64,000 bases of DNA, taken from an uncultured Olsenella sp. GTDB taxonomy: Bacteria; Actinomycetota; Coriobacteriia; Coriobacteriales; Atopobiaceae. A program made the translations under genes and the position numbers. The stretch covers positions 1-64,000 of the forward strand of contig OMVT01000002.1 in assembly GCA_900314535.1 (NCBI GenBank). The letters are read 5' to 3'. Below the pieces are notes generated by a model, which was not told where the DNA came from, ran no database searches, and saw nothing but the letters and a program-made list of their open reading frames with translations. This document shows positions 48,589 through 62,944 of the stretch, piece by piece; position 1 is the stretch's first letter, and each line of letters begins with the position of its first letter.

Positions 48589-48653
48589 TATAAATAACGC
48601 ACTATCTCTTTTGCCATGGCTTCCGAGACAGGGGAGCATGATTTGCGGAAGCC
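48589..48653 (+). promoter_or_regulatory. Promoter and leader hairpin of the amino-acid ABC operon
   Basis: A good -10, TATAAAT, lies at 48589-48595; a -35 is less clear (TTGAAT at about 20 bp). The transcript would begin with a stem GGCTTCCG (48618-48625) / CGGAAGCC (48646-48653) 27 nt before the first start codon. Upstream, GATGAATGGTTAATGCATC (near 48457-48475) is a rough dyad and could be an amino-acid regulator site. Confidence 0.45.
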
Positions 48654-48679
48654 AGAACAATGAAAAGAAAGGCACTGAC

Positions 48680-49681
48680 ATGCGCAAGCTTGACAATCTT
48701 CTTCTCACCAGGCGCCAGGCACTCGCAGCAGGAGCTGGCACCATTGCAGCAGCAGGCCTCTTCGGCCTTGCAGCCTGCGATTCTTCTGACACCTCTTCGA
48801 GCACCGCGTCTTCATCCTCGTCCTCGAGCTCGTCCGACACGTCGAGCGCATCGACCGACCTCGATATCGACGCCTATGACTCCCTGATTGCTGGCGGCGC
48901 CACCGCAGACGACGCAACGATCTCCGCAAATGCCTGGGCCAAGAAGATCAAGGATGCCGGCACGTTCCGCGTCGGCGGCACCCGCACCTCCACCCTCTTC
49001 AGCCTCCTGAACGAGACGGACAACAAGGTCCGCGGCTTCGATGCCGGCCTCTATCAGCTCCTGGCCCGCTACATCCTGGGCGACGAGACGAAGCTCGACC
49101 TCACGCAGGTCACATCCGATACCCGCGAGTCCGTGCTCCAGAACGACCAGGTCGACGCCGTATTTGCAACCTACTCGATTACGGACAGCCGCAAGAAGGT
49201 CATCTCCTTCGCAGGCCCCTACTTCGTCTCCCAGCAGGCCATCCTGGTCCTCGCAGACAACACCGATATCAACAGCGTCGATGACCTCGCCGGCAAGAAC
49301 GTGGCTGTCCAGTCTGGCTCCACGAGTCCCAGCATCGTGAGCGAGCTTGCCCCTGATGCCAAGCAGCAGGAGTTCAGCACCGACGAGGAGGCACGCCGGG
49401 CTCTCGAGCAGGGACGTGTCGATGCCTACGTGATCGACGAGACGCTCCAGATGGGCTCTGTCGTCAAGAACCCGGGCAAGTACCGCATCGCCGGCGACCC
49501 GTTCGGTCCGGACGATCCTTACGGCATTGGCCTCCCGCTCGACTCCGACGGCGTCGATTTCGTCAACGCATGGCTCAAGAGCATAGAGGATGACGGAACG
49601 TGGGAGCAGCTCTGGAAGATCGCTATCGGCGACCGCACGGGCCTCGACAACGCCCCCGAGCCTCCTGCCATCGAGGCATAG
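48680..49681 (+). CDS. Amino-acid ABC transporter substrate-binding lipoprotein (glutamate type)
   Basis: 333 aa. Twin-arginine lipoprotein signal LTRRQALAAGAGTIAAAGLFGLAAC, a Ser/Thr-rich linker, then a family-3 periplasmic-binding fold: FRVGGTRTSTLFSLLN, RGFDAGLYQLLARYIL, VTSDTRESVLQNDQVDAVFATYSITDSRKKVISFAGPYF and GIGLPLDSDGVDFVNAWL. Similar to GluB/GlnH proteins that bind glutamate, glutamine or aspartate. AAAGG lies 8 nt before the ATG. Followed by two permeases and an ATPase. Confidence 0.92.
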   Translation: MRKLDNLLLTRRQALAAGAGTIAAAGLFGLAACDSSDTSSSTASSSSSSSSSDTSSASTDLDIDAYDSLIAGGATADDATISANAWAKKIKDAGTFRVGGTRTSTLFSLLNETDNKVRGFDAGLYQLLARYILGDETKLDLTQVTSDTRESVLQNDQVDAVFATYSITDSRKKVISFAGPYFVSQQAILVLADNTDINSVDDLAGKNVAVQSGSTSPSIVSELAPDAKQQEFSTDEEARRALEQGRVDAYVIDETLQMGSVVKNPGKYRIAGDPFGPDDPYGIGLPLDSDGVDFVNAWLKSIEDDGTWEQLWKIAIGDRTGLDNAPEPPAIEA

Positions 49682-49719
49682 GCACCCTATCCAGCATATT
49701 TCCTGGCTGTTAGCACACT

Positions 49720-49754
49720 ATGAGGTTTCCGCTGCACCCGGGCGGAAACCTCAT
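49720..49754 (+). terminator. Intercistronic hairpin after the binding-protein gene
   Basis: 12-bp stem ATGAGGTTTCCG / CGGAAACCTCAT, 38 nt after the stop codon and 58 nt before the permease start. It is not followed by a T run. A stem here typically protects the abundant binding-protein mRNA or limits read-through, so that more binding protein is made than permease. Confidence 0.7.
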
Positions 49755-49812
49755 ACTTATAGAGACACGCCTTCTTCCAGAAGGCACCTCACAGAAAGGA
49801 AGGAGAGGATGC

Positions 49813-50472
49813 ATGAGCTTCGCTGAGCTCTGGAGCGCCTATGGCTCGGACTACATCACGGCCCTTCTCACGACCTGGCAGCTTACCGCCATCTCGTTCG
49901 TCTTCGTGATGCTGCTCTCTGTCATCATCACGATCATGCGTGTCTGCCCGATCAAGCCTCTGCGCGTCGTAGGCGACCTCTATGTGCAGATCTTCCGCAA
50001 CATCCCCGGCATCTCGCTTCTGATCATCTGCGTCTATGCACTGCCGTATCTCAAGGTCCTTCTGTCCTACCGCGACTGCGTGATCATTGCGACGATCCTT
50101 CTGGGCTCTGCCTTCGGGTCGGAGAACTTCATGAGCGGCATCAATACGATCGGCGTCGGCCAGATCGAGGCAGCACGCTCCATCGGCCTCACGTTCACGC
50201 AGATCCTGCGCCGCATCGTGATTCCCCAGGCCCTGCGCTCGTCCGTGCTGCCGATGACAAACCTGCTCATCGCCGTCATGCTGACGACAGCACTCGGCTC
50301 CCAGGTCCCGCTCGATCCCAATGAGCTCACCGGCATCGTCTCGACGATCAACACCCAGGTCGCTGGCGGCATTGCCACGTTCTTCATCTCCGCGCTCGGC
50401 TATGCCCTGACCGCTCTTGCTATCGGCTTTGTCGGCAATGCAATCGACAAGAAAGCGAGGATCCTGAGATGA
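49813..50472 (+). CDS. Amino-acid ABC transporter permease (first)
   Basis: 219 aa, five membrane segments, HisM/GluC type. It has TTWQLTAISFVFVMLLSVII and the EAA loop EAARSIGLTFTQILRRIVIPQALRSSVLPMTN that contacts the ATPase. ATG at 49813 with AGAGG at 5 nt; an open extension to 49720 runs through the hairpin. Its stop overlaps the next permease start (ATGA). Confidence 0.93.
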   Translation: MSFAELWSAYGSDYITALLTTWQLTAISFVFVMLLSVIITIMRVCPIKPLRVVGDLYVQIFRNIPGISLLIICVYALPYLKVLLSYRDCVIIATILLGSAFGSENFMSGINTIGVGQIEAARSIGLTFTQILRRIVIPQALRSSVLPMTNLLIAVMLTTALGSQVPLDPNELTGIVSTINTQVAGGIATFFISALGYALTALAIGFVGNAIDKKARILR

Positions 50473-51314
50473 GTGCCACGACTGTCTCCATGCGCGACGC
50501 CCTCTACGAGGCACCCGGTCCCAAGACCCGTCGCCGCATCCGCATCTGGACGGCCATAGCGCTTGTCCTCGTCGCCCTGGGCATCTTCGCGATCGTCCAG
50601 CGCTTCTATGTCACAGGCCAGCTCGCCCCGAAATACTGGGCCTTCTTCACGCGCTGGACGACCTGGCGTTTCCTGCTCCAGGGATTTGTCGGCACGGTCG
50701 AGGTCGCTGTCACGGCAGGCATCATCGCCCTTGCTCTCGGCCTTCTCCTCATGATGGGCCGCATCAGCGAGAACAAGATCCTGGCCGGCATCTGCCATGT
50801 GATCATCAACTTCTTCCGTGGCGTCCCGAGCCTGCTTCTGATCTACTTCTTCTTCCTGGTCATCCCCCAGTACGGCATCAAGATGTCCTCGTTCTGGATG
50901 ATCACGCTGCCGGTCGCGCTTGCTGCCTCAGGTGTCCTGGCCGAGGTCTTCCGTGCCGGCATGTACGCCGTGCCGAAGGGCCAGACGGAGGCTGCCCTCT
51001 CTCTCGGCATGAGCCCGCTCCATGTGAAGCTCAAGATCGTGTTCCCGCAAGCCATCCGCATGGTCATACCGTCGCTCATCTCGCAGCTGGTCGTTGTCGT
51101 GAAGGACACGACCGTCGCCTACGTCGTGTCGTTCCCCGACCTCCTGCAGAATGCGCGTGTCCTCATCACGAACTACGATGCACTCGTCTCCACCTACTTC
51201 GTGGTTGCAATCATCTACATCCTCATCAATTACGGCATCAACCAGTTCGCCATCTCCCTCGCCCGGAAGCAGGGCTCCTCGATCGTGGCCCGCACGAACG
51301 AGAATCCCGTCTAG
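50469..51314 (+). CDS. Amino-acid ABC transporter permease (second)
   Basis: 281 aa, GluD type, with an N-terminal cytoplasmic stretch of about 25 residues and then five or six membrane segments. EAA loop: EAALSLGMSPLHVKLKIVFPQAIRMVIPSLISQLVVVVKDTTVAYVVS. FFRGVPSLLLIYFFF is the usual conserved segment. Start overlaps the first permease by 4 nt, so translation is coupled. Confidence 0.93.
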   Translation: MSATTVSMRDALYEAPGPKTRRRIRIWTAIALVLVALGIFAIVQRFYVTGQLAPKYWAFFTRWTTWRFLLQGFVGTVEVAVTAGIIALALGLLLMMGRISENKILAGICHVIINFFRGVPSLLLIYFFFLVIPQYGIKMSSFWMITLPVALAASGVLAEVFRAGMYAVPKGQTEAALSLGMSPLHVKLKIVFPQAIRMVIPSLISQLVVVVKDTTVAYVVSFPDLLQNARVLITNYDALVSTYFVVAIIYILINYGINQFAISLARKQGSSIVARTNENPV

Positions 51315-51353
51315 CAGGAAGATAGGCAGACATTGGCAATGGATAGGAGCCAT

Positions 51354-52109
51354 ATGGATACACAGGCAGCCTCTGCGCCCGTCATCGAGCTCAGGCATGT
51401 CGAGAAGCACTACGGAGACCTCCATGTCCTGAAGGACATCAATCTCTCCGTCCACAAGGGCGAGGTCGTCGTCGTGATCGGCCCTTCCGGTTCGGGCAAG
51501 TCGACGCTCTGCCGCACGATCAACCGCCTCGAGACCATCGATTCAGGCGAGATCTTAATCGAAGGCAAGCCTCTTCCCCAGGAAGGCAAGGAGCTCGCTG
51601 CAATGCGTGCCGACCTCGGCATGGTGTTCCAGCAGTTCAACCTCTTCGCGCACATGACAATCTTGGACAACGTGACCTTGGGTCCCATCGATGTCCTGCA
51701 TGAGCCGAAGGAGCAGGCCAAGAAGGAGGCCATGGACCTCCTGGCACGCGTCGGCGTGGCCGAGCAGGCAGGAAAGGTCCCCGCCCAGCTCTCCGGTGGC
51801 CAGCAGCAGCGTGTCGCGATTGCCCGCTCCCTTGCGATGCATCCGAAGGCCATGCTCTTCGACGAGCCGACATCTGCCCTCGACCCCGAGATGATCAACG
51901 AGGTCCTGGACGTTATGGTCGAGCTTGCAAAGCAGGGAATGACGATGATCGTCGTGACGCACGAGATGGGCTTTGCCCGCCGCGTTGCTGACCGCGTCGT
52001 CTTCATGGCAGACGGCCAGATTGTCGAGGAAGGCACACCTGACGAGTTCTTCGAGCATCCGAAGAGCCAGCGTGCCCGCGACTTCCTCGACTCCATCATG
52101 GGCCACTAG
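51354..52109 (+). CDS. Amino-acid ABC transporter ATP-binding protein
   Basis: 251 aa. Walker [11 protein letters not shown]-loop [13 protein letters not shown], signature [15 protein letters not shown], Walker [15 protein letters not shown], switch His in [10 protein letters not shown]: all intact, in the polar amino-acid (GlnQ/GluA) subgroup. ATG at 51354 with AGGAG at 6 nt. Completes an operon of binding protein, two permeases and ATPase. Confidence 0.95.
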
Positions 52110-52136
52110 CCAGGATATCCCGCACTGCACATCTGG

Positions 52137-52168
52137 CACCCCGCATCAGCCGCAAACGATGCGGGGTG
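52137..52168 (+). terminator. Hairpin after the ABC operon
   Basis: 11-bp stem CACCCCGCATC / GATGCGGGGTG, 28 nt after the ATPase stop and 22 nt before the peptidase C26 start. TCCTCATG follows; partial read-through to the next gene is possible. Confidence 0.65.
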
Positions 52169-52190
52169 TCCTCATGAAAGGTCCTTTTCC

Positions 52191-52949
52191 ATGTCTGTAT
52201 CTTCGAAGCGTCCTCTTATCGGCATCGCTCCCCGCTGGGAGAGGAAGGTGCCGACCGCACAGGTCCCCGACCAGCTTGCCCCGACCGAGGGGATGGCAAG
52301 CTGCTTTCCTGATGCAATCGTCGATGCAGGAGGCACGCCTATCCTGCTTCCGCTGACAGATGACGCAGATGCAATCAACCAGCTTGTAGAGCTCTGCGAC
52401 GGCTTTGCCCTGCAGGGCGGCCCCGATGTGGACCCTGCCCGCTTCGGCAGCACCAAGCCATACGATCCGGCCCTCCTCTGCCCTGAGCGCGATGCCTTCG
52501 AGCTTCCGCTCGTGCAGAAGATCCTCGCTGCAGACAAGCCGCTCTTCACGACCTGCCGCGGCACGCAGCTCCTGAACGTGGCACTCGGCGGCACGCTCTG
52601 CATGGATGTGCCAAGCCTCAAGCCACGGGAAGGCATGCAGCTCTGGCGCCATGCCAAGGTCCTGACCGATCCGGTCCACCCTGTCGAGGTGAAGCCAGAT
52701 ACGCTTCTTGCCCATATTGTGGGAAAGCCAGAGATCCAGGTGAACTCGGCCCACCACTGCTGCGTCGGGAAGCTGGGAGAGGGGCTCATCCTTTCCGGCG
52801 AGGCAACAGACGGCGTGCCTGAGTGCATCGAGCTTCCTGAGGCACGTTTCGTCCTCGGCGTGCAGTGGCACCCTGAATACACGTGGCCGACACTCGCCTC
52901 AGACCGTGCGCTCTGGCATGCCTTCGTGGATGCCGCACGCAAGTCCTAG
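52191..52949 (+). CDS. Gamma-glutamyl-gamma-aminobutyrate hydrolase family protein (peptidase C26)
   Basis: 252 aa class I glutamine-amidotransferase fold. Nucleophile C122 in FTTCRGTQLLNVALGG, histidine in GVQWHPEYTW near residue 227, and the family motif LQGGPDVDPARFG near 75-87. Members split gamma-glutamyl bonds (PuuD) or remove glutamate from conjugates. It follows the glutamate-type ABC operon in the same direction, so imported gamma-glutamyl compounds may be the substrate. AAAGG lies 9 nt before the ATG. Confidence 0.92.
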   Translation: MSVSSKRPLIGIAPRWERKVPTAQVPDQLAPTEGMASCFPDAIVDAGGTPILLPLTDDADAINQLVELCDGFALQGGPDVDPARFGSTKPYDPALLCPERDAFELPLVQKILAADKPLFTTCRGTQLLNVALGGTLCMDVPSLKPREGMQLWRHAKVLTDPVHPVEVKPDTLLAHIVGKPEIQVNSAHHCCVGKLGEGLILSGEATDGVPECIELPEARFVLGVQWHPEYTWPTLASDRALWHAFVDAARKS

Positions 52950-52952
52950 AAT

Positions 52953-54560
52953 CTAGCCGCGCTTCCTCGAAGCGAATGCGTGCAGAGCCTCTTCAAATGT
53001 CCGCTTCTGCTCTTTGCTCCAGCTGCCCATATCATCCGACGTGAAAAGGACGCTCCCCAACGAGGCATCTGCCTCAAGGAGCGTCTTCTTCTGTGCTTCA
53101 GAGAGCTTCACATCGTCTCTCAGGAAGAAAACATCGGGGTCGTTGAGGAACGCCACGCCATCCATATGCGCACGTCCCCGGATATTGCCGAGAGCATTCT
53201 TCGTGCTCACGCGCTCACGGCCGGATATCCTCATGTACGGCGCGCCATCCCAGTCAAGCCCCACGTCGCAGCCGATGCGGCAGTACTCGGTGCGGCCGAT
53301 AGCAGACATGATGGGCACGCCGCAGAGATCGAAGAGCGTGCCTTCAGGAACGGAATCCCTCAGAAGGTCGAGCGCGTCTGCCATGAGCTCGCCCCGGTTC
53401 TTCCCGCCATGCGGCAGGAGCGCTGCCGCATAGAGAAAGTCGAGCTTGAGAAGCCGGAATCCCCAGGTCCCTGCAGCAAGTCCCAGCACCTCATGCACAT
53501 AGGAGCGGACTTCAGGGTTCAAGGTATCGAGCGCATAGCCGCCTGACCAGTGGGAGCCGCTCATCACGGGGTTTCCTGCCTCATCGCGCAGCAGCCAGTC
53601 CCGATGCTCATGGAAGAGCCGAGAGTCCTTCTCGCAGACGAAGGGTGCGATCCAGAGCCCCGGAAGAAGCCCCGCTGCAGCAATCTTCTCTGCCATGAAG
53701 CCCATGCCATGAGGGAAGCGCTCTGTGCTTGGATGCGTCCAGTCCCCTACCTTCGTGTAGCCGTCGTCGATCTGAAAGACCGGAAGGATGCCTTCGGGCA
53801 CCTGCCTGGAAAGCGCTGCCTTGACACCAGCGAGGTCCTGCACAAGCTTTTCCTCATCGATATCCCCGTAGTGCCTGTACCAGCTCGTGAAGCCGACGAG
53901 GGGCTCAGCTGGCCTGCGCCTCTTCCCTATGCATGTCACAAAGCGAGCGAATGCCTCTTTTGCTGTTCCCTCCAGAAGGCAGAGCGCAAAGACGCAGATG
54001 CGCTCGCCGGGCTCGATGAGACGGGCTGGCCCTTCCTTCACGATCCTGAACTTCTGCGCATCGAGATCTTCCTGGATCGTCGTGAGCCCAAGATCGGGCA
54101 GGCATTCTCCGAAGAGGAGCGTCTCATCTCCGTAGCGCAGATATCCATAGCCTTCGCCGTGCTGATGTCCACTCTTGGGATTCTGGGGGCAGAAGCGGTA
54201 GTCACCCGAGGCATCGAGCACCCAATGGCGGATGGCCGCCTTCGGCGTATGGGCAAGGCCGGCCATCGAAGCATCGAGCGGACGCTCGCAGGAGTCGGTC
54301 CAGGAGTTGTAGCCATTGAGGAAGAGCGCCGTGGCCTTTTCCATATCTGGCTCGATCGTCGCCTCGACGGAGGCCACCATCAGAGGCTCAAGAGGCTCGA
54401 TCCACAGGCGGCAGCCGTTCTCTGTCTCCTCGAGCTCCGCCATTAAGGGAAGCCTAGGCACTCCCGGCACGAGGACGGATGCCGTTCCTTCCTTTCCGGC
54501 AGCTGTCCGCCAGGAAAGCTTCCAGGAAGGCGCCTTCAGGATATGTGCGAGCAAAGCCAT
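52953..54560 (-). CDS. Alpha-galactosidase-like glycoside hydrolase (GH36 type)
   Basis: 535 aa, shorter than the usual 720 because the N-terminal beta domain is reduced. TIM barrel: FTSWYRHYGDIDEEKL, FQIDDGYTKVGDWTHPSTERFPHGM, GLWIAPFVCEKDS, nucleophile Asp in FRLLKLDFLYAAA, acid Asp in YCRIGCDVGLDW and IRGRAHMDGVAFLNDPDVFFLRDD. Cytoplasmic, no signal peptide. ATG at 54560 with AAGG at 8 nt, one base after the GPH transporter stop, so translation is coupled. It cleaves alpha-galactosides imported by the neighbour. Confidence 0.9.
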   Translation of the reverse strand: MALLAHILKAPSWKLSWRTAAGKEGTASVLVPGVPRLPLMAELEETENGCRLWIEPLEPLMVASVEATIEPDMEKATALFLNGYNSWTDSCERPLDASMAGLAHTPKAAIRHWVLDASGDYRFCPQNPKSGHQHGEGYGYLRYGDETLLFGECLPDLGLTTIQEDLDAQKFRIVKEGPARLIEPGERICVFALCLLEGTAKEAFARFVTCIGKRRRPAEPLVGFTSWYRHYGDIDEEKLVQDLAGVKAALSRQVPEGILPVFQIDDGYTKVGDWTHPSTERFPHGMGFMAEKIAAAGLLPGLWIAPFVCEKDSRLFHEHRDWLLRDEAGNPVMSGSHWSGGYALDTLNPEVRSYVHEVLGLAAGTWGFRLLKLDFLYAAALLPHGGKNRGELMADALDLLRDSVPEGTLFDLCGVPIMSAIGRTEYCRIGCDVGLDWDGAPYMRISGRERVSTKNALGNIRGRAHMDGVAFLNDPDVFFLRDDVKLSEAQKKTLLEADASLGSVLFTSDDMGSWSKEQKRTFEEALHAFASRKRG

Positions 54561-54561
54561 C

Positions 54562-55944
54562 CTATCTGCCTTCCTCTGCAGAAGCCGACTCCGTGGCGCC
54601 AATCGTCCTGAGTACCTTGGCTTCGTGATAGCGCGTGAAGACAAGCCCCGCCACGAAGCAGAAGATGGTCGCGACGATTGCCGTGAGACGGTAGCCCATC
54701 TGTCCCCCTGCAGCCGTCGAGAGCGACGTGAAGAGGACCATCGCAAGCGTCTGCCCCAAGGTCATGCTGAACGTGCGTGCGGCATAGAACATGCCCTCGC
54801 GGTTCTCTCCAGACGTTATGGCATCAGCCTCTGCGATATCGGCAAGCACAGCCTGCGGAAGGATGCCAAGTATTGCCATGGGCACGGCGGCAAGCACGGC
54901 CACAAGGATGCCCCAGACAAGCGAGGGGATGCCGAACTGGCCGCAGACCGCTGTCACGGCAAAGGCGAGGCAGAAGAAGAAAAAGGCGAAGGCAACAAGC
55001 TTCTTCTTGCCCATCTTCTTGGCCAGAATGTTCACCGGTGCATAGAACAGGAGCGATATCGCTGTCATCGCAGCGAAGAAGATGAAGGTCCAGGAGTCGT
55101 CGAAGCCCATGAGCTCCGTGACATAGTACGGAAGGCCCGTCTGGAACATCGTGATTGAGACCCAGTAGAGGACGTCGGACCCTTCGAAGATCTGGAACTC
55201 GCGGTTCTTGAAGGTCTTCACGACCGACTGCCCCATGGGAGTCGAGCTCGGCTGCGTATCGGCGTACTTGACCTCGTCGATCCCGAAGGCAGCAACGAGC
55301 ATGCAGATGGCAGCGACGACAGCAAGCACGGCGACCGTCGCGCGGAATGCATTGGCAGGGCCCAAGGCCGGCTCGAGGAAGCCTGAGATCATCGTCACGA
55401 GATATGCCATGGCAGTGCCGACGAAATAGGTCACAGAGATATAGGTCGAGATGTTGATCCTGAGCTCCTGCGTACGTCCGAGCTCAGGGATCAGGGCATT
55501 GAACGGCGTGCAGTAGAGCGAGAGCGTGATGTAGAAGAGCATGAGGCAGCAGAAGAGCAGGACATTGTTCGCCACCGCAGACGAAGTCCCCGGCAGCACG
55601 AACACGAGCACCGTCATCGCTGCAAACGGAATCGCCGCCCTCCTCATGAACGGGATCCTCCTGCCGTGAGGGTTGGCAAGAGAGTCAGACTTCGAAGCGA
55701 TGAAGGGATCGATGAAGCCATCGAGCAGGCGTCCGCAGCCCGTGATGATGCCAATGACGGTAAGACCGGCAAACACGATGCCCTGGGTGATGAAGATGGG
55801 CATGCCTTCTGCGACCAGAGTATCGGAGGGCATGTAGTAGTAGACGAGCCAGTTGCTGATGATGCCCGAAAGTATTGCCCAGCCAAGCTGTCCGATCGCG
55901 AAGAGGCGGATGGTCTTCCCATCTGCAAGCGGCCTGCTCTCCAT
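54562..55944 (-). CDS. GPH family sugar:cation symporter
   Basis: 460 aa, twelve membrane segments, glycoside-pentoside-hexuronide family (MelB-like). Marks: RLLDGFIDPFIASKSDSLANPHGRRIPFMR in the 2-3 loop, LSLYCTPFNALIPELGRTQELRINISTYISV in helix 4, and ENREGMFYAARTFSMTLGQTLA near the end. AAGGG lies 7 nt before the ATG. Between tetR (26 nt upstream) and the GH36 gene, so the operon reads tetR-symporter-alpha-galactosidase. Likely substrate: an alpha-galactoside. Confidence 0.92.
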   Translation of the reverse strand: MESRPLADGKTIRLFAIGQLGWAILSGIISNWLVYYYMPSDTLVAEGMPIFITQGIVFAGLTVIGIITGCGRLLDGFIDPFIASKSDSLANPHGRRIPFMRRAAIPFAAMTVLVFVLPGTSSAVANNVLLFCCLMLFYITLSLYCTPFNALIPELGRTQELRINISTYISVTYFVGTAMAYLVTMISGFLEPALGPANAFRATVAVLAVVAAICMLVAAFGIDEVKYADTQPSSTPMGQSVVKTFKNREFQIFEGSDVLYWVSITMFQTGLPYYVTELMGFDDSWTFIFFAAMTAISLLFYAPVNILAKKMGKKKLVAFAFFFFCLAFAVTAVCGQFGIPSLVWGILVAVLAAVPMAILGILPQAVLADIAEADAITSGENREGMFYAARTFSMTLGQTLAMVLFTSLSTAAGGQMGYRLTAIVATIFCFVAGLVFTRYHEAKVLRTIGATESASAEEGR

Positions 55945-55970
55945 GGATATCCCTTCTCGCTGAAACGTGC

Positions 55971-56651
55971 CTAGATCCTGATGAAACGCACTGCCATATC
56001 GACAAGGCAGACAAGCTCTGAGGGGTCTTCCTCGAAACGGTCGGAGGGGATCACATCGCCCCGGGAGATCTTCTCTGCCAGGCCCGTAAGCGCATGGGCA
56101 ACCGTGCGGTAGAACGTCCTGAAATCGTCGATCTGCCTGACCGTGCCATCGGAGACGCCGAGCTGGTAGGCATCGACGAAGATGAGATAAAACGAGTCGA
56201 CCTCGCGTCCATAGTCGGCAAGCGCCTCAAGGCCGACATGCTCTGCAAGCATCAGATGGTCGAAGTCGTCGAGGAAGCGCGCGAATTCCCTGTTTGCCGC
56301 ATAGTGCGCTGCATACTCGCGCAGCAGGCACTCGAGGCGGTCTGCGCCCGACATGGCAAGGAAGCGGTCCGATTCCACGATATCCATGATGCGGTCATTG
56401 AAGCGCTGCCAGAGAAGCGTCGCTGCCGCAATCGCAAGATTCGTCTTCGTGGAGAAGCGGCGATAGAGCGTGGCTACGCCGATACCAGAAGCATCGGCAA
56501 TGTCGGTCATCCGGACCTCTCCCAGGCCATCCTTCAGGAAAAGCGCCGCTGCACAGGCCACGATATGGGCATCGCGGCTCTCTTCGGCAGAGCCCGAAAG
56601 GTCACGCATCCCCCGCTTCAGCAGGCTTGTGTCGAGACCTGCGTACTCCAT
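55971..56651 (-). CDS. TetR family regulator of the alpha-galactoside/GT-B locus
   Basis: 226 aa. HTH FLKDGLGEVRMTDIADASGIGVATLYRRFSTKTNLAIAAATLL; the C-terminal ligand domain is not assignable. AAAGGAG lies 9 nt before the ATG. It heads the tetR-GPH-GH36 operon and is divergent from the GT-B-like gene; two 17-bp palindromes in the 90-bp gap (separate entry) are its likely operators, so it should control both directions. Confidence 0.9.
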   Translation of the reverse strand: MEYAGLDTSLLKRGMRDLSGSAEESRDAHIVACAAALFLKDGLGEVRMTDIADASGIGVATLYRRFSTKTNLAIAAATLLWQRFNDRIMDIVESDRFLAMSGADRLECLLREYAAHYAANREFARFLDDFDHLMLAEHVGLEALADYGREVDSFYLIFVDAYQLGVSDGTVRQIDDFRTFYRTVAHALTGLAEKISRGDVIPSDRFEEDPSELVCLVDMAVRFIRI

Positions 56652-56674
56652 TCTTGACTCCTTTGCCGCGTGAG

Positions 56675-56711
56675 TGATAGTCTGTCTATCACTTTGATAG
56701 TCAGACTATCA
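56675..56711. promoter_or_regulatory. Twin TetR operators
   Basis: TGATAGTCTGTCTATCA (56675-56691) and TGATAGTCAGACTATCA (56695-56711) are near-perfect palindromes that share TGATAGTC and CTATCA. The centres are 20 bp apart, i.e. two helical turns, which allows side-by-side dimers. They lie exactly between tetR and the GT-B-like gene. Confidence 0.85.
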
Positions 56712-56741
56712 AGCATGCCGCCACCCGTCAAGGAGGAATCC

Positions 56742-58295
56742 ATGGAAAGAGACGAGGACCGGGCGAAAAGCGCCTTCGGAAATGTCCAGGACGAGCACAC
56801 CTATAAGAAGGCCGTCCGCTCCAAGGAAAGCTATCTCAAGCGTTTCGGCGATGACTCGAATGCGGTCTACCACCTTGCGGCCAAGCCGGTACCGGTGATC
56901 TCAGACGCCCTCGGCGTCCGGAACCTCGTGCTCTCAGGCACCGGAGATGCCTTCGATATCAAGGCAGATGCCGCAGCGGCGCCCATGCCTCCCGAGACCT
57001 CTGCCACGCAGGAAGACGCCCATGGCGCTCCTCTCATTGTCGGCAATATCCGCATGGGATTCGGGCACTACCGGATTGCGATGGCCATGGCATCGGCTGC
57101 TCATGCGATGGGATACACCCCCTACTGGATGGACCTTGCCTCATTCAAAGGCTCGACAGGATCTGCTGCCATCGCCTGGCAGAACAACCTCTATTCCAAG
57201 GGCTCGAAGGTCTCGCAGCAGGTTCCCCTCTTCAACCAGCTCTTCTGGGAGCCGCTCAACAGCGAAGGATTCCGCAAGCTCTCCTACAACGCAGGCGACC
57301 AGAAGATGAGCGAGCTTCTGGTGCCGCTCTTCCGCGACATCGCAAAGGACACGCCCTTCATCGGCACCCATGCGTGGTGTGCACAGGCAGCAGTCCATGC
57401 CGGGATGACGCACGTCGTGAATGCGATTCCCGACAACTGGCCAATGGCGCTCCACCTGGCAGAAGGCTCAATCCACACCGTGCAGACGCCGAGCGCCTAT
57501 CTTGGCTACCACCAGCTCCGCGGCATGGACCCGAAAAGACAGCTTGCCCCCATGCCGGAAGATGCGCTGTTCTATACGGGCCACTATGTGGACCACGAGC
57601 TGGTCTCTGCCATCCCTGAAGACTGCGCGAAGCGCCGCGAGCGCGTGCTCGGAGGAGGGCCCGTGCGCTATCTCCTCTCTGTCGGCGGCGCAGGAGCGCA
57701 GCAGGAGCTCTTTGCTGCCATTGTCTCCCACCTCATCCCCTACGTGAAGAAGCATGAGGCCGCCGTCTTCATCAATGTCGGCGACCACAAGGATGTCTGG
57801 GAAGGGCTCGTGAAATCCGTCGATGGGCTCTCCGCTCTCGCTGAGACCCACTTCGGCGACTTTGCCGGCACGGAAGCCTTCGCCGAAGCAGCCCATGCAG
57901 GAGATGTCCAGGGCATCCATGCCTTCTGCGATGAGGACATCTTCTCAGCCGTATACAGTTCCAATGTCCTCATGCACTGCTCCGATATCCTTGTCACGAA
58001 GCCAAGCGAATTCTCGTTCTATCCCATCCCGAAGCTCATGATCCACCGCATCGGCGGCCATGAGGCATGGGGAGCTATACGTGCCGCAGAGGTAGGAGAC
58101 GGCACCTACGAGATGGACAGGACCGAAGAGGTCCTCTCGATGATCGACTCCTTCCAGCATGACAGGAACCTCATCTCGTTCATGTGCGACCGCATCGAGG
58201 AAGCGAACCAGATGGGCATCTACGACGGTGCCTATCGTGCGGTCGACCTCGCTGTGCATGGCCTCAAGTCTTCCTGGGCGAAAGCGAGCAGATAG
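56742..58295 (+). CDS. Uncharacterised protein with GT-B glycosyltransferase-like features
   Basis: 517 aa, soluble. VGNIRMGFGHYRIAMAMASAAHAMGYTPYWMDLAS (near residue 100) resembles the first motif of MurG/MGDG-synthase-type GT-B enzymes. LLSVGGAGAQQELFAAIVSHL (near 305) looks like the linker-to-donor-domain strand, and SDILVTKPSEFSFYPIPKLMIHRIGGHEAWGAIRAAEVGDGT (near 435-475) like the nucleotide-sugar-binding region. The N-terminal 75 residues are charged and not recognised. AGGAGG lies 6 nt before the ATG; the reading back to 56670 crosses the operators. Function unknown; coupled to alpha-galactoside genes by TetR sites. Confidence 0.8.
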   Translation: MERDEDRAKSAFGNVQDEHTYKKAVRSKESYLKRFGDDSNAVYHLAAKPVPVISDALGVRNLVLSGTGDAFDIKADAAAAPMPPETSATQEDAHGAPLIVGNIRMGFGHYRIAMAMASAAHAMGYTPYWMDLASFKGSTGSAAIAWQNNLYSKGSKVSQQVPLFNQLFWEPLNSEGFRKLSYNAGDQKMSELLVPLFRDIAKDTPFIGTHAWCAQAAVHAGMTHVVNAIPDNWPMALHLAEGSIHTVQTPSAYLGYHQLRGMDPKRQLAPMPEDALFYTGHYVDHELVSAIPEDCAKRRERVLGGGPVRYLLSVGGAGAQQELFAAIVSHLIPYVKKHEAAVFINVGDHKDVWEGLVKSVDGLSALAETHFGDFAGTEAFAEAAHAGDVQGIHAFCDEDIFSAVYSSNVLMHCSDILVTKPSEFSFYPIPKLMIHRIGGHEAWGAIRAAEVGDGTYEMDRTEEVLSMIDSFQHDRNLISFMCDRIEEANQMGIYDGAYRAVDLAVHGLKSSWAKASR

Positions 58296-58301
58296 AAAAG
58301 A

Positions 58302-58333
58302 AGCAGCGCCAGCCACAGAGAGCTGGCGCTGCT
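58302..58333 (+). terminator. Terminator of the GT-B-like gene
   Basis: 12-bp stem AGCAGCGCCAGC / GCTGGCGCTGCT followed by TTCATGAATA, 7 nt after the stop codon. Confidence 0.8.
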
Positions 58334-58369
58334 TTCATGAATATAGAGCTGGCGCTGCTTTCATGAATA
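58319..58369. repeat. Tandem duplication of the terminator arm
   Basis: A 25-nt segment starting AGAGCTGGCGCTGC and ending ATGAATA occurs at 58319-58343 and again at 58345-58369. The left stem arm at 58302-58313 can therefore pair with either of two right arms, giving alternative hairpins. Confidence 0.85.
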
Positions 58370-58379
58370 CGTCTTGCAT

Positions 58380-58945: not shown

Positions 58946-59203
58946 ATGTCGAGCTTCAAGACGTTTCAGCAGACCATTGCTGCCAAGGCTCTGGACGCAA
59001 GCCATGTAGAGGCCACCTTCGAGAACGGCAGCGCTGCCATCCTCGACCTCTCCGACATCAAGGGCCAAGGTCCCTGGGCAAAGCTCCAGGACCCGGCCTT
59101 CTTCGAGCGCGCACATGCCGCCTTCGGCACCATCGTCTGGCCAGACGGCATAGACCTCACGCCCGAAGAGGTCTGGGTCCGCGCACAGAAGGCTGCCTGC
59201 TAG
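58946..59203 (+). CDS. DUF2442 domain protein
   Basis: 85 aa. KALDASHVEATFENGSAAILDLSDIKGQGPWAKLQDPAFFERAHAAFGTIVWPDGIDLTPEEVW is a complete DUF2442 domain: short, beta-rich, ending in the typical WPDGIDLTPE. Such proteins are often partners of DUF4160 in toxin-antitoxin-like pairs, but no DUF4160 gene is here. GAGGAG lies 6 nt before the ATG. Its last 4 nt overlap the thiD stop in convergent orientation. Confidence 0.85.
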   Translation: MSSFKTFQQTIAAKALDASHVEATFENGSAAILDLSDIKGQGPWAKLQDPAFFERAHAAFGTIVWPDGIDLTPEEVWVRAQKAAC

Positions 59204-59967
59204 ATACGAGGCTGTCCGAGATAGGCTCCTTCCGGAAGCACCGTCTTGCTCTGGAGGCCACAGGCAAGCACGATCTTTGCCTGCCTCACCGCATCTTCCG
59301 TGCCTCTGCCTGCGGCGAGTCCCGCTGCAATGGCGCTCGAGAGCATGCATCCCGTTCCGTGGGCAGAGACGCCTGCAACAGGCGGGACCGATATCCAGGA
59401 GACGCCGTCCTCTTCAGCCAGGCAGTCATCGGCAAGTCCCAGATGCCCGCCCTTGAGAAGGACAGCGCAGCCGAAGCGGCGCTGGAGCTCAGCAGCTGCA
59501 GCGACCATGCCATTCCGCGAAGCGATCTCATGTCCCAGGAGCTTCTCCGCCTCAGGCACATTCGGCGTGATGAGCGTAGCCAGGCGGAAGAGGGAGAAGA
59601 GCCCTTCTTCTGCATCCTCCTCGAGAAGCAGGGTCCCGCTCGTTGCCGCGAGCACGGGATCGACCACGATGTTCTGCGCACCGACCTGCCTCAGCGTCTT
59701 CGCTGCTACAGCAGCTATCTCCTGCGTGCCGAGCATGCCGATCTTCACGGCAGAGGGCACAAGGTCTTCGAAAGCAGCACGGATCTGCTGCTGCACAAGC
59801 TCGGGCGGAAGCGGCGTGACCACATGCACTGCCGCAAGCGACTGCGCCGTCACGGCCGTGGCTGCCACCTTGGGATGAAGGCCCATTCCCGAGATGGTTG
59901 CCACGTCCTGCGCCAGGCCTGCCCCGCCCGAGCTGTCAAGCCCTGCTATAGCGAGGACCGCTTTCAT
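59200..59967 (-). CDS. thiD: Hydroxymethylpyrimidine/phosphomethylpyrimidine kinase
   Basis: 255 aa ribokinase-fold kinase. Phosphorylates HMP and HMP-P for thiamine synthesis. Motifs: AGLDSSGGAGLAQDVATISGMGLH at the N-terminus, VKIGMLGTQEIAA, VVDPVLAATSGTLLLEEDA, VLLKGGHLG and the anion-hole GVSAHGTGCMLSSAIAAGLAAG. Starts within the thiE stop (ATGA), last gene of thiC-thiM-thiE-thiD. Confidence 0.96.
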   Translation of the reverse strand: MKAVLAIAGLDSSGGAGLAQDVATISGMGLHPKVAATAVTAQSLAAVHVVTPLPPELVQQQIRAAFEDLVPSAVKIGMLGTQEIAAVAAKTLRQVGAQNIVVDPVLAATSGTLLLEEDAEEGLFSLFRLATLITPNVPEAEKLLGHEIASRNGMVAAAAELQRRFGCAVLLKGGHLGLADDCLAEEDGVSWISVPPVAGVSAHGTGCMLSSAIAAGLAAGRGTEDAVRQAKIVLACGLQSKTVLPEGAYLGQPRI

Positions 59968-60653
59968 GCGGAGACGACCTTCTGAAGCTCTGCCTTGAGC
60001 TTCTCTGTCGCCGTACGGCAGTCATCTGCGGCAAAGATGGTAGAGACGGCTGCCCCTCCGGCAACGCCCGTGCCTTCGAGCTCATGCGCCGTCGTGGCAT
60101 CGACGCCGCCGATACCGATAACAGGAATGGGGACCGCCGCGCAGATGCGGGTCAGCTCCTCGTAGGTCACATCGACCGCGTCGGGCTTCGTCGGCGTCGG
60201 ATGGAGCGCACCGACGCCGAGATAGTCGGCACCTGCCTTCCAGGCAGCCACAGCCTCATCCGCGGTCTGGGCAGAGACGCCGATGATTGCATCTTCGCCC
60301 AGGATCTCGCGGGCCTTGCTGCAGGCAAGGTCTTCCTGTCCAACATGCACGCCGTCAGCGCCCACCTTCTTTGCAAGCTCGACATCGTCGTCGAGCACGA
60401 AGGGGACGTGGTGGGCAGCGCAGATGTCCTTGAGTTCGAGCGCAAGCTTCTCCGTCTCCTCGACGGAGGCCTTCTTCTCGCGGAGCTGGATGAAGGTAGC
60501 GCCTCCTGCAATGGCATCCTCGACACAGGAGGCAAGCGTCCTTCCGCGGAGCCAGGCTCTATCTGTCACGGCATAGCAGAGCATGCTCTTCCTGATGTCC
60601 GCGGCTGACCAGGGTCTGCGCTGGCAAGGGCCGAGCTTCGTCTCCTCTGTCAT
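59964..60653 (-). CDS. thiE: Thiamine-phosphate synthase
   Basis: 229 aa TIM barrel that joins HMP-PP and thiazole phosphate. Seen: LCYAVTDRAWLRGRTL, FIQLREKKASVEETEKLA, FVLDDDVELAKKVGADGVHVGQEDL, GVSAQTADEAVAAWKAGADYLGVGALHPTPTKPD and VIGIGGV. The N-terminal 20 residues are extra. Its start shares one base with the thiM stop (TGATG). Confidence 0.96.
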   Translation of the reverse strand: MTEETKLGPCQRRPWSAADIRKSMLCYAVTDRAWLRGRTLASCVEDAIAGGATFIQLREKKASVEETEKLALELKDICAAHHVPFVLDDDVELAKKVGADGVHVGQEDLACSKAREILGEDAIIGVSAQTADEAVAAWKAGADYLGVGALHPTPTKPDAVDVTYEELTRICAAVPIPVIGIGGVDATTAHELEGTGVAGGAAVSTIFAADDCRTATEKLKAELQKVVSA

Positions 60654-61483
60654 CAGAGATCGGCCACCTTCGCAGACTCGACAAGGTCTCTGCCCTGGAT
60701 GTTCGAGAGCGCATCGATGAGATACGTGCGGAAGCTACCGGTACCGTCCTCCCCTGCCATGCGAGAACGTGCCTTCTCGCCGCAGATGCCCATCATCGAG
60801 ATGCCGGCAACCGTTGCCATATATGCATCCTCATTCGCTGCCAGGCAGGCCGGAAGCATTGCCGAGAGCATGCAGCCCGTGCCGGTGATGCAGCCCATCA
60901 TCGAGACGCCATTCCTGATGGCGCAGGTCCTCATGCCGTCGCTCACGATATCGATAGCGCCCGTCACGGCAACCGTGCACTTCCATGCCACGGCAAGGCT
61001 CTTCACGAAGGCAGCTGCCTCGGCGAGGTTCTCCTCTGTCGCCACGTCAGCAGCCGAGGCATCGACGCCGCGGGTCGAGGACGAGGCTCCACCAAGCGTA
61101 CGAATCTCGCTCATGTTGCCGCGGACCAGCTGGGGATGGTAGGTGTCGAGCAGGTGCTGTGCCGTCTCGGTACGAAGCTTCGAGGCACCGGCACCGACCG
61201 GATCGAGCACGATTGCATGGCCCAGAGACGCTGCCTTTGCGGCGGCATGGTTCATGCCTTCGATGCTCCGGCGGTTCAGGGTGCCGATGTTGAGGTCGAG
61301 CCCATTGCAGATGGATGTGATGTCTTCCACGTCGTCCGGCTCGTCGCTCATGATCGGGCTGGCACCGATAGCGAGGACGGCATTTGCGCAGTCATTCACC
61401 GTGACATAGTTCGTGATGCAGTGCACGAGAGGCGACGTCTTCCTGACATTGTCGAGGCAGGCACCAAGCTCTTCCGTATTCAT
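60653..61483 (-). CDS. thiM: Hydroxyethylthiazole kinase
   Basis: 276 aa. Phosphorylates the thiazole alcohol salvaged from the environment. CITNYVTVNDCANAVLAIGASPIMSDEPDDVEDI, NIGTLNRRSIEGMNHAAAKA, IVLDPVGAGASKLRTE, LVRGNMSEIRTLGG, VAVTGAIDIVSDG and MGCITGTGCMLSAML are all typical. ATG at 61483 with GGAGGAG upstream. It lies 78 nt after thiC. No thiazole synthesis genes (thiG, thiS, thiF, thiH) are present in the window. Confidence 0.96.
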   Translation of the reverse strand: MNTEELGACLDNVRKTSPLVHCITNYVTVNDCANAVLAIGASPIMSDEPDDVEDITSICNGLDLNIGTLNRRSIEGMNHAAAKAASLGHAIVLDPVGAGASKLRTETAQHLLDTYHPQLVRGNMSEIRTLGGASSSTRGVDASAADVATEENLAEAAAFVKSLAVAWKCTVAVTGAIDIVSDGMRTCAIRNGVSMMGCITGTGCMLSAMLPACLAANEDAYMATVAGISMMGICGEKARSRMAGEDGTGSFRTYLIDALSNIQGRDLVESAKVADL

Positions 61484-61561
61484 AGGTATGCTCCTCCATG
61501 CAGCGAGAAGCAGGTGCTGCCATCTGCCCTGCTGCTTCATATGCTTTTCTTCTCTTCGCTT

Positions 61562-62854
61562 CTAGCCGAGGTCGACCGTAAGACCTGCCATGATCCTGTT
61601 CACGGTGCGGGCGGCGCACATCTTGCCGCACATCGTGCAGGTGCCATCCTCCTCAGGAGGCGCCTCCGCAATGATCTCCTTCGCACGGTCAGGATCTATT
61701 GCGCATGCGAACATGCCATCCCAGTCGACACGGCGGCGGGCATCGCTCATCTTGTTGTCGATGTCGCGGGCTCCCGGAATGCCCTTCGCGATATCTGCGG
61801 CATGGGCTGCGATGCGGGTGACGACGAGGCCTTCGCGCACTTCCTTTGCATTGGGGAGCTTCAGGTGCTCGGCCGGCGTCACATAGCAAAGCCAGTCAGC
61901 ACCGGAAGATGCGGCGACGGCACCGCCGATAGCGGCCGTGATGTGATCATAGCCCGGCGCGATATCCGTCACGAGAGGTCCGAGCACATAGAACGGCGCA
62001 CCATGGCAGAGGCGCTTCTGGAGCTTCATGTTTGCTTGGATCTCATCCAAGGCCATATGTCCCGGTCCTTCGACGACGACCTGGACGCCCTTCTTCCAGG
62101 CACGCGTCGTGAGCTTGCCGAGCTCGACCAGCTCTGACACCTCGGAGGCATCCGTCGCGTCATACGTGGAGCCGCCACGCATTGCGTCGCCGAGGCTGAT
62201 TGTCACGTCGTGGTCATGGAGGATATCGAGCACGTCGTCGAAATGCTCATAGAAGGGGTTCTCCTCCCCTGTTGTCATCATCCACCCGAAGAGAAGCGAC
62301 CCTCCGCGCGACACGACATTCGTGAGGCGCTTCGTCTCGAGGAGAGTATTCAGGACCGAGCGGTTGAAGCCAGCATGGATGGTCATGAAGTCGACGCCGT
62401 CTTCGGCATGCGCTTCCACGACGTCCAGGAAGTCCTGGGCTGTGAGCTTCACGAGAGGCTTGTCGTTGTAGCCGATTGCATCGTAGATGGGAACCGTACC
62501 GACCATGAGAGGAGTCTTGGAGATGAGCTCGCGGCGGAACGGACGGGTCTTGCCAGAGTTCGAGAGGTCCATGATCGCATCGCCGCCATACTCCTCGGCG
62601 ATCCTGACCTTCTCCCACTCCTCAGGTGCATTCTGGATATCGCCGGAGATGCCGAGATTCACGTTGACCTTCGTGCGCAGGCCTGTTCCCACGCCGCAGG
62701 GCTTGAGTGCCTTGTGTGCCGGATTCGCAGGAATCGCGATCGTTCCCTTTGCGACACCGTCTCTGATGAATTCGTCGGATCTGTGTTCTGCCACTGCTAC
62801 TGCGTGCATCTCGTCGGTCACGGTACCTGCACGCGCAGCATCCATCTGCGTCAT
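61562..62854 (-). CDS. thiC: Phosphomethylpyrimidine synthase
   Basis: 430 aa radical-SAM enzyme that makes HMP-P from aminoimidazole ribotide. KVNVNLGISGDIQ, DLSNSGKTRPFRRELI, MTIHAGFNRSVLN, SRGGSLLFGWMM, ISLGDAMRGGSTYDATDASEVSEL, VEGPGHMALDEI and the C-terminal cluster cysteines CTMCGKMC are present. GGGAG lies 5 nt before the ATG and forms the 3' edge of the TPP riboswitch, so translation initiation can be blocked by the ligand. Confidence 0.97.
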   Translation of the reverse strand: MTQMDAARAGTVTDEMHAVAVAEHRSDEFIRDGVAKGTIAIPANPAHKALKPCGVGTGLRTKVNVNLGISGDIQNAPEEWEKVRIAEEYGGDAIMDLSNSGKTRPFRRELISKTPLMVGTVPIYDAIGYNDKPLVKLTAQDFLDVVEAHAEDGVDFMTIHAGFNRSVLNTLLETKRLTNVVSRGGSLLFGWMMTTGEENPFYEHFDDVLDILHDHDVTISLGDAMRGGSTYDATDASEVSELVELGKLTTRAWKKGVQVVVEGPGHMALDEIQANMKLQKRLCHGAPFYVLGPLVTDIAPGYDHITAAIGGAVAASSGADWLCYVTPAEHLKLPNAKEVREGLVVTRIAAHAADIAKGIPGARDIDNKMSDARRRVDWDGMFACAIDPDRAKEIIAEAPPEEDGTCTMCGKMCAARTVNRIMAGLTVDLG

Positions 62855-62860
62855 GGCGCT

Positions 62861-62944
62861 CCCTTCGTTGGCATTACCCACATCAGGTTCAAAGGGTCGG
62901 GACCATCTGTCCCCTCTCAGCCGGCCCATGCCAGCTCCCCTCTA
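62861..62944 (-). ncRNA. TPP riboswitch (THI element)
   Basis: On the minus strand, GGGG...GGCTGAGAGGGG, then ACCCTTTGAACCTGATG, GGGTAATGCCAACG and AAGGGAG appear in the order and spacing of the thiamine pyrophosphate aptamer (CTGAGA and CTGAT-N-TAATGCCA boxes). It lies directly before thiC, and its last bases include the Shine-Dalgarno sequence, so control is probably at translation. Confidence 0.95.

Follow-up and report, generated by a model that had tools for sequence, protein, structure and literature searches.

A predicted TetR-controlled galactoside-utilisation locus of an uncultured Olsenella sp. includes a conserved GT-B-like protein of the DUF6937/DUF6938 family

The window, i.e. 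the whole stretch of 64,000 nucleotides analysed here from contig OMVT01000002.1 of an uncultured Olsenella sp., contains a four-gene locus in which three genes on the minus strand face a single gene on the plus strand. The genes and the features recognised in and around them are as follows:

52953-54560, minus strand: GH36-type alpha-galactosidase (predicted), 535 aa; PF02065, 43 bits (cutoff 27)
54562-55944, minus strand: GPH-type (MFS_2) sugar:cation symporter (predicted), 460 aa; PF13347, 133.9 bits (cutoff 27)
55971-56651, minus strand: TetR-family regulator, 226 aa; PF00440, 39.5 bits
56675-56691, no strand: putative operator 1, palindrome TGATAGTCTGTCTATCA, kept in relatives
56695-56711, no strand: putative operator 2, palindrome TGATAGTCAGACTATCA, 20 bp from operator 1, kept in relatives
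56742-58295, plus strand: 517-aa GT-B-fold protein with DUF6937 and DUF6938; PF22052, 357 bits, and PF22053, 334.9 bits (curated cutoff 27 bits, exceeded in both)
57036-57077, plus strand: motif VGNIRMGFGHYRIA, about residues 99-112, with the invariant His109, aligned to the GxGH of MGDG synthase
57996-58079, plus strand: altered donor-site stretch TKPSEFSFYPIPKLMIHRIGGHEAWGAI, residues 419-446, in place of TKPGGxTxxEA...PGQExxN of relatives
58301-58334, no strand: 14-pair hairpin 3′ of the GT-B gene stop, possibly a terminator; the call was on the minus strand alone

The four genes lie where the first-pass annotation had put them, and the spacing on the minus strand, 26 bp between tetR and the symporter gene and a GH36 gene beginning 1 nt past the symporter stop, is consistent with its reading of tetR-GPH-GH36 as one operon. 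The GH36 coordinates start at an ATG; a longer form with a TTG start would extend to 54746. The protein is of the short type, and its nearest solved structures by phmmer are the alpha-galactosidases 6lcj (5.7e-44) and 1zy9 (8e-36). The catalytic regions KLDFLYAA and RIGCDV align with 6lcj, and the Melibiase profile match together with the catalytic aspartates predicts GH36 alpha-galactosidase activity. The symporter scored 97.7 bits with TIGR00792, under the curated cutoff of 231, and would be at best a divergent GPH member.

At lower coordinates of the window (48611-52949), genes that by eye encode a polar amino-acid ABC transporter are followed by a peptidase C26/class-I glutamine amidotransferase gene, the stop of which lies 3 bp from that of the convergent GH36 gene. 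On the other side, two copies of a directly repeated sequence about 24 bp long, GAGCTGGCGCTGCTTTCATGAATA, lie immediately 3′ of the GT-B gene (window 58321-58370) and overlap the hairpin; terminator-like matches around this gene end were not far over the shuffle mean. The adjoining minus-strand run of genes at 59200-62929 reads by eye like thiamine synthesis or salvage (ThiD, ThiE, ThiM and ThiC).

The 517-aa gene is divergent from tetR-GPH-GH36, and the two palindromes of 17 bp lie between them. Exact matches to TGATAGTCNGNCTATCA were in the 2.4-Mb genome confined to this tetR/GT-B intergenic region, and the reversed-pattern control gave 0. A further site with one mismatch lay upstream of an aldo/keto reductase gene, at a distance of about 180 bp; the frame of this gene is apparently broken by a frameshift or an assembly error (L149:7082-7098; G000:C29:57581-57597). 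The operator, single or paired, was also found as TGATAGTnnnACTATCA at the same position in most loci of Atopobiaceae with an adjacent TetR, and in 18 of the 26 genomes searched it was nearly always at this locus alone. In one relative a perfect operator was detected off the main locus near ABC transporter genes (G182:C18:4547-4563; L167). The upstream regions of tetR in Bacillota displayed no common palindrome, with related palindromes in subsets. The regulon was considered as a clue to the substrate and rejected, the operator being almost restricted to this locus and the aldo/keto reductase site not tied to the pathway. The TetR_N domain and the palindromes in the divergent intergenic region point to a local repressor, and from the position and recurrence of the putative operators the 517-aa gene and the uptake/hydrolysis operon are very probably under this one predicted repressor. 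Both the TetR control and the shared operators proposed in the first-pass annotation are thereby upheld at the level of sequence.

The arrangement resembles melibiose-type operons (GH36 and MelB) in that GH36 and a GPH symporter are in one operon with a local regulator. It differs from them in the predicted control by TetR rather than by an AraC/LacI-type regulator, in the near-constant additional GT-B gene, and in the GH2 beta-galactosidase found in about a third of the fully flanked loci described below.

The neighbourhood was compared across 109 loci: 80 from genome contigs, 28 from class relatives and the window. After calling and clustering of ORFs, the DUF6937/DUF6938 family was placed in 107 of them. 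Sixty-three loci were fully flanked, with five or more called genes to either side, and in these the neighbours were counted within five genes: GH36 (n = 58), GPH (n = 57), both of them (n = 53), TetR (n = 49), GH2 (n = 22), galT (n = 13) and galK (n = 11). Because genes were called by a simple ORF procedure, the counts are approximate and more likely to be too low than too high. The GH2 representative is nearest to the beta-D-galactosidase 5euv. In the genome studied here galK is not at the locus but elsewhere, whereas it adjoins the locus in many relatives. The gene order in Bacillota is usually co-directional (tetR, sometimes GH2, GT-B, GPH, GH36), as in locus L189 with tetR-GTB-GPH-GH36-galK-galT, whereas the GT-B gene is divergent in Coriobacteriia. 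In Anaerosporobacter faecicola (L080) the order tetR-GH36-GTB-GPH is followed by an S33/monoacylglycerol-lipase-like gene (L080:11039-11989), a possible link to lipids seen in this one locus only. Across about 106 loci the recurrent neighbours were all catabolic, namely GPH, GH36, GH2 beta-galactosidase, galK, galT and TetR, and no recurrent gene for lipid synthesis, a flippase or glycan export was seen among them.

The family was present in 32 of the 298 Coriobacteriia genomes sampled. In an evenly drawn sample of Bacillota the core family was found in 5 of 398 genomes, one of which was the centre genome of the search; the neighbours in these carriers were GH2, GPH, GH36, galK and galT in varying sets, and one carrier had GPH only. 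The neighbourhood thus spans two phyla and is not specific to this strain, as the first-pass annotation had left to be checked.

In most Bacillota the GT-B protein shares 50-55% identity with that of the window. The GPH partners are about 22% identical between Bacillota and Coriobacteriia, the GH36 partners about 28% over 160 residues, and the TetRs barely align. With different lineages of GPH, GH36 and TetR beside so similar a GT-B protein, the partners appear to have been recruited or replaced more than once. In the tree the other type of transporter also appeared within the Bacillota clade (L070 and L086), and L080 and L038 had mixed sets. Retention of one GT-B gene while its partners are exchanged is a strong sign, from sequence comparison, that the protein is functionally coupled to the galactoside genes, and the proposed connection to galactoside uptake is likewise borne out by the conserved neighbourhood, with "uptake" depending on the family assignment of the transporter. 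That the GT-B gene merely hitchhikes beside GH36-GPH pairs, which are common by themselves, is in our view highly improbable: a few orphan copies with GH36 or any partner absent nearby (L062, L065 and L094) would agree with it, but the association holds in 53 of 63 loci, spans two phyla whose partner lineages are unrelated, involves a common operon or shared operators, and persists through partner switching.

The family DUF6937/DUF6938 has no assigned function in Pfam, and searches of the open-licence literature for DUF6937, DUF6938 and galactosylglycerol with Butyrivibrio gave nothing direct. The AlphaFold (AF2) model of the 517-aa protein (pLDDT 92.3, pTM 0.93) has two Rossmann-like domains, as predicted for a GT-B fold. 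Foldseek matches in the PDB were GT-B enzymes, viz. glycogen synthase, UDP-GlcNAc 2-epimerase, trehalose-6-phosphate synthase and MGD1, which is the galactolipid synthase of plants, at low to moderate TM-scores (0.24-0.44 normalised to the query and up to 0.59 normalised to the target). Low TM-scores can arise from differing angles between the two GT-B domains. A search of a viral fold library returned generic GT-B matches only. The resemblance to GT-B glycosyltransferases first noticed by eye, and the comparison with MGDG synthase then suggested, are in this way substantiated by the predicted structure and by the profiles described next.

A PDB sequence search with the protein gave no usable match, and the PF06925 profile did not match it at E<=1. 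The alignment profile of the family found in the PDB a weak match to diacylglycerol glucosyltransferase (E 0.6). Profile-profile comparison by hhalign aligned the family to the MGDG_synth family at 96.4% (E 1e-9), and at 98.5% and 99.0% through an intermediate family, while four unrelated control families reached at most 0.7%. UgtP-like proteins match the DUF6938 profile just short of its cutoff (E 2.3e-5 to 2.6e-4). The intermediate family (L178-L183) consists of DUF6938-only proteins of about 450 aa from other Bacillota, which bridge DUF6937/DUF6938 and UgtP. They share with the 517-aa protein the motifs MGxGH, GGAGAQ and TKPSELSFY, but have no DUF6937 match, are 26-33% identical to it and have no galactoside genes nearby; their neighbours are unrelated and gave no useful context for function.

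Like MGDG synthase (MGD1, PDB 4x1t) and UgtP/processive diacylglycerol glucosyltransferase (PF06925; CAZy GT28), the 517-aa protein has the predicted GT-B fold, the GxGH motif, the G-loop at the start of the C-domain, the Lys of TKP and the Glu of GxE, and the profile alignment spans the full length. It differs from them in the missing PF06925 match, an N-terminal extension of about 95 residues and the setting in a catabolic operon. In an alignment of 64 homologues about 100 positions over both domains are invariant, among them G108-H109 and the GGAGAQ loop. The His of GxGH (H155) is the catalytic base in MGD1 (PMC7419546). In the donor site TKPSELxFY replaces TKPGGxTxxEA and GGHExWGA replaces PGQExxN. 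As GxGH is retained and TKPGGxTxxEA is replaced, the protein is best viewed as a remote relative of the MGDG synthase/UgtP superfamily, forming a separate clade. The donor motif of the known UDP-sugar-using relatives being replaced, synthesis based on UDP-galactose cannot be assumed.

Diacylglycerol is captured in MGD1 by a flexible loop some 50 residues long (PMC7419546). In the model of the 517-aa protein the counterpart of this membrane loop (residues ~131-200) consists mostly of ordered helices (pLDDT 85-97), and many of its invariant positions are polar or aromatic. This may reflect a different substrate, probably a soluble one. The hydropathy of the protein is lower overall, and hydropathy and pI support solubility weakly.

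These features bear on whether the protein is a biosynthetic galactosyltransferase, through which imported galactose would pass as UDP-Gal into a glycolipid or surface glycan, close to the "scavenging-and-display" pathway of the first-pass annotation. Remote homology to MGDG synthase and to the processive diacylglycerol glucosyltransferase, the retained catalytic-base motif, the galT beside some loci as a possible supply of UDP-Gal and the lipase-like gene of L080 all agree with such a role. We nevertheless regard it as unlikely, since the donor motif has changed and the membrane-loop counterpart is predicted to be mostly ordered, as described, the roughly 106 loci lack recurrent lipid, flippase or export genes, and presence in 32 of 298 Coriobacteriia genomes is unlike a housekeeping membrane-lipid enzyme. 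With only catabolic genes among the recurrent neighbours and a replaced donor motif, the earlier "scavenging-and-display" proposal is not sustained.

A GT-B fold may also serve something other than a transferase, e.g. an NDP-sugar epimerase, a hydrolase or a sensor tuning the pathway. The best fold matches include non-hydrolysing UDP-GlcNAc 2-epimerases, the donor motif differs from that of the relatives, and the gene is apparently co-regulated with a pathway in which the pools of UDP-Gal and Gal-1-P need balance. The nearest sequence relatives found are however MGDG synthase and UgtP rather than epimerases, and the roughly 100 positions invariant over the two domains point to a catalytic site with strict requirements, which leaves a function of this kind distinctly unlikely.

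As all the recurrent neighbours are catabolic, a catabolic role is favoured, and with somewhat better than even confidence we propose that the locus is a TetR-controlled galactoside-utilisation module with a dedicated, probably soluble and probably catabolic GT-B enzyme for the handling of galactosyl groups; its substrate, reaction and direction are inferred. The module may be depicted as follows: TetR bound to the two tandem operators would repress the tetR-GPH-GH36 operon, to which its own gene belongs, as well as the GT-B gene facing it. In the presence of a galactoside or its product, the symporter would, judging from its family, import the galactoside, GH36 would likewise remove terminal alpha-galactose, and the released galactose would enter the Leloir pathway. 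The intracellular DUF6937/DUF6938 enzyme, probably soluble and probably acting in the catabolic direction, would add a galactosyl group to, or take one from, the imported compound or what is left of it. Possibly a bond of the beta-galactosyl-glycerol type to the aglycone, left after GH36, is cleaved with UDP or phosphate as the acceptor, on the same principle as in sucrose synthase or a phosphorylase.

Alpha- and beta-galactosidases are jointly present (GH36, and GH2 near 5euv), which makes a substrate with alpha- as well as beta-galactosyl groups plausible. The GT-B gene occurs with and without GH2 and would not be a simple replacement for a beta-galactosidase. Use of raffinose and galactomannan was judged less likely, as no sucrose-cleaving or mannosidase family was among the recurrent neighbours scanned, although enzymes for the aglycone could be encoded elsewhere. 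A natural candidate substrate would be the galactosylglycerol of plant galactolipids (Gal-alpha-1,6-Gal-beta-glycerol). Many carriers have source titles naming ruminant, rabbit, deer or horse, in a raw tally uncorrected for background, and galactosylglycerol as a possible substrate fits this herbivore and rumen origin and the gene content. With simple glycosides, moving the galactosyl group of a beta-galactoside to UDP is energetically unfavourable, which counts against catabolic cleavage. The most specific form of the proposal, in which a soluble GT-B relative of galactolipid synthases uses UDP or phosphate to split galactosyl-glycerol-type compounds and retains the bond energy as UDP-Gal or Gal-1-P, is held to be rather unlikely. 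It has been proposed that gut beta-galactosidases naturally act on galactosylglycerols derived from galactolipids (PMC8333865).

In many Lachnospiraceae and Coriobacteriia of the animal gut, the operons for galactoside utilisation include a member of the highly conserved DUF6937/DUF6938 family, which lacks an assigned function. That the family is conserved while the transporters, hydrolases and regulators beside it are interchangeable implies a step missing from current models of alpha-galactoside catabolism, and the partnership with unrelated genes in two phyla points to an undescribed step of galactoside metabolism. A catabolic function would show that a membrane-lipid glycosyltransferase fold had been recruited to catabolism, and the protein is a concrete candidate for a means of galactolipid use by gut bacteria. 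Galactolipids are the main lipids of green leaves, and catabolic splitting of galactosyl-glycerol, if true, would provide the bacteria of the herbivore gut with an undescribed, energy-saving route for the head groups of plant galactolipids.
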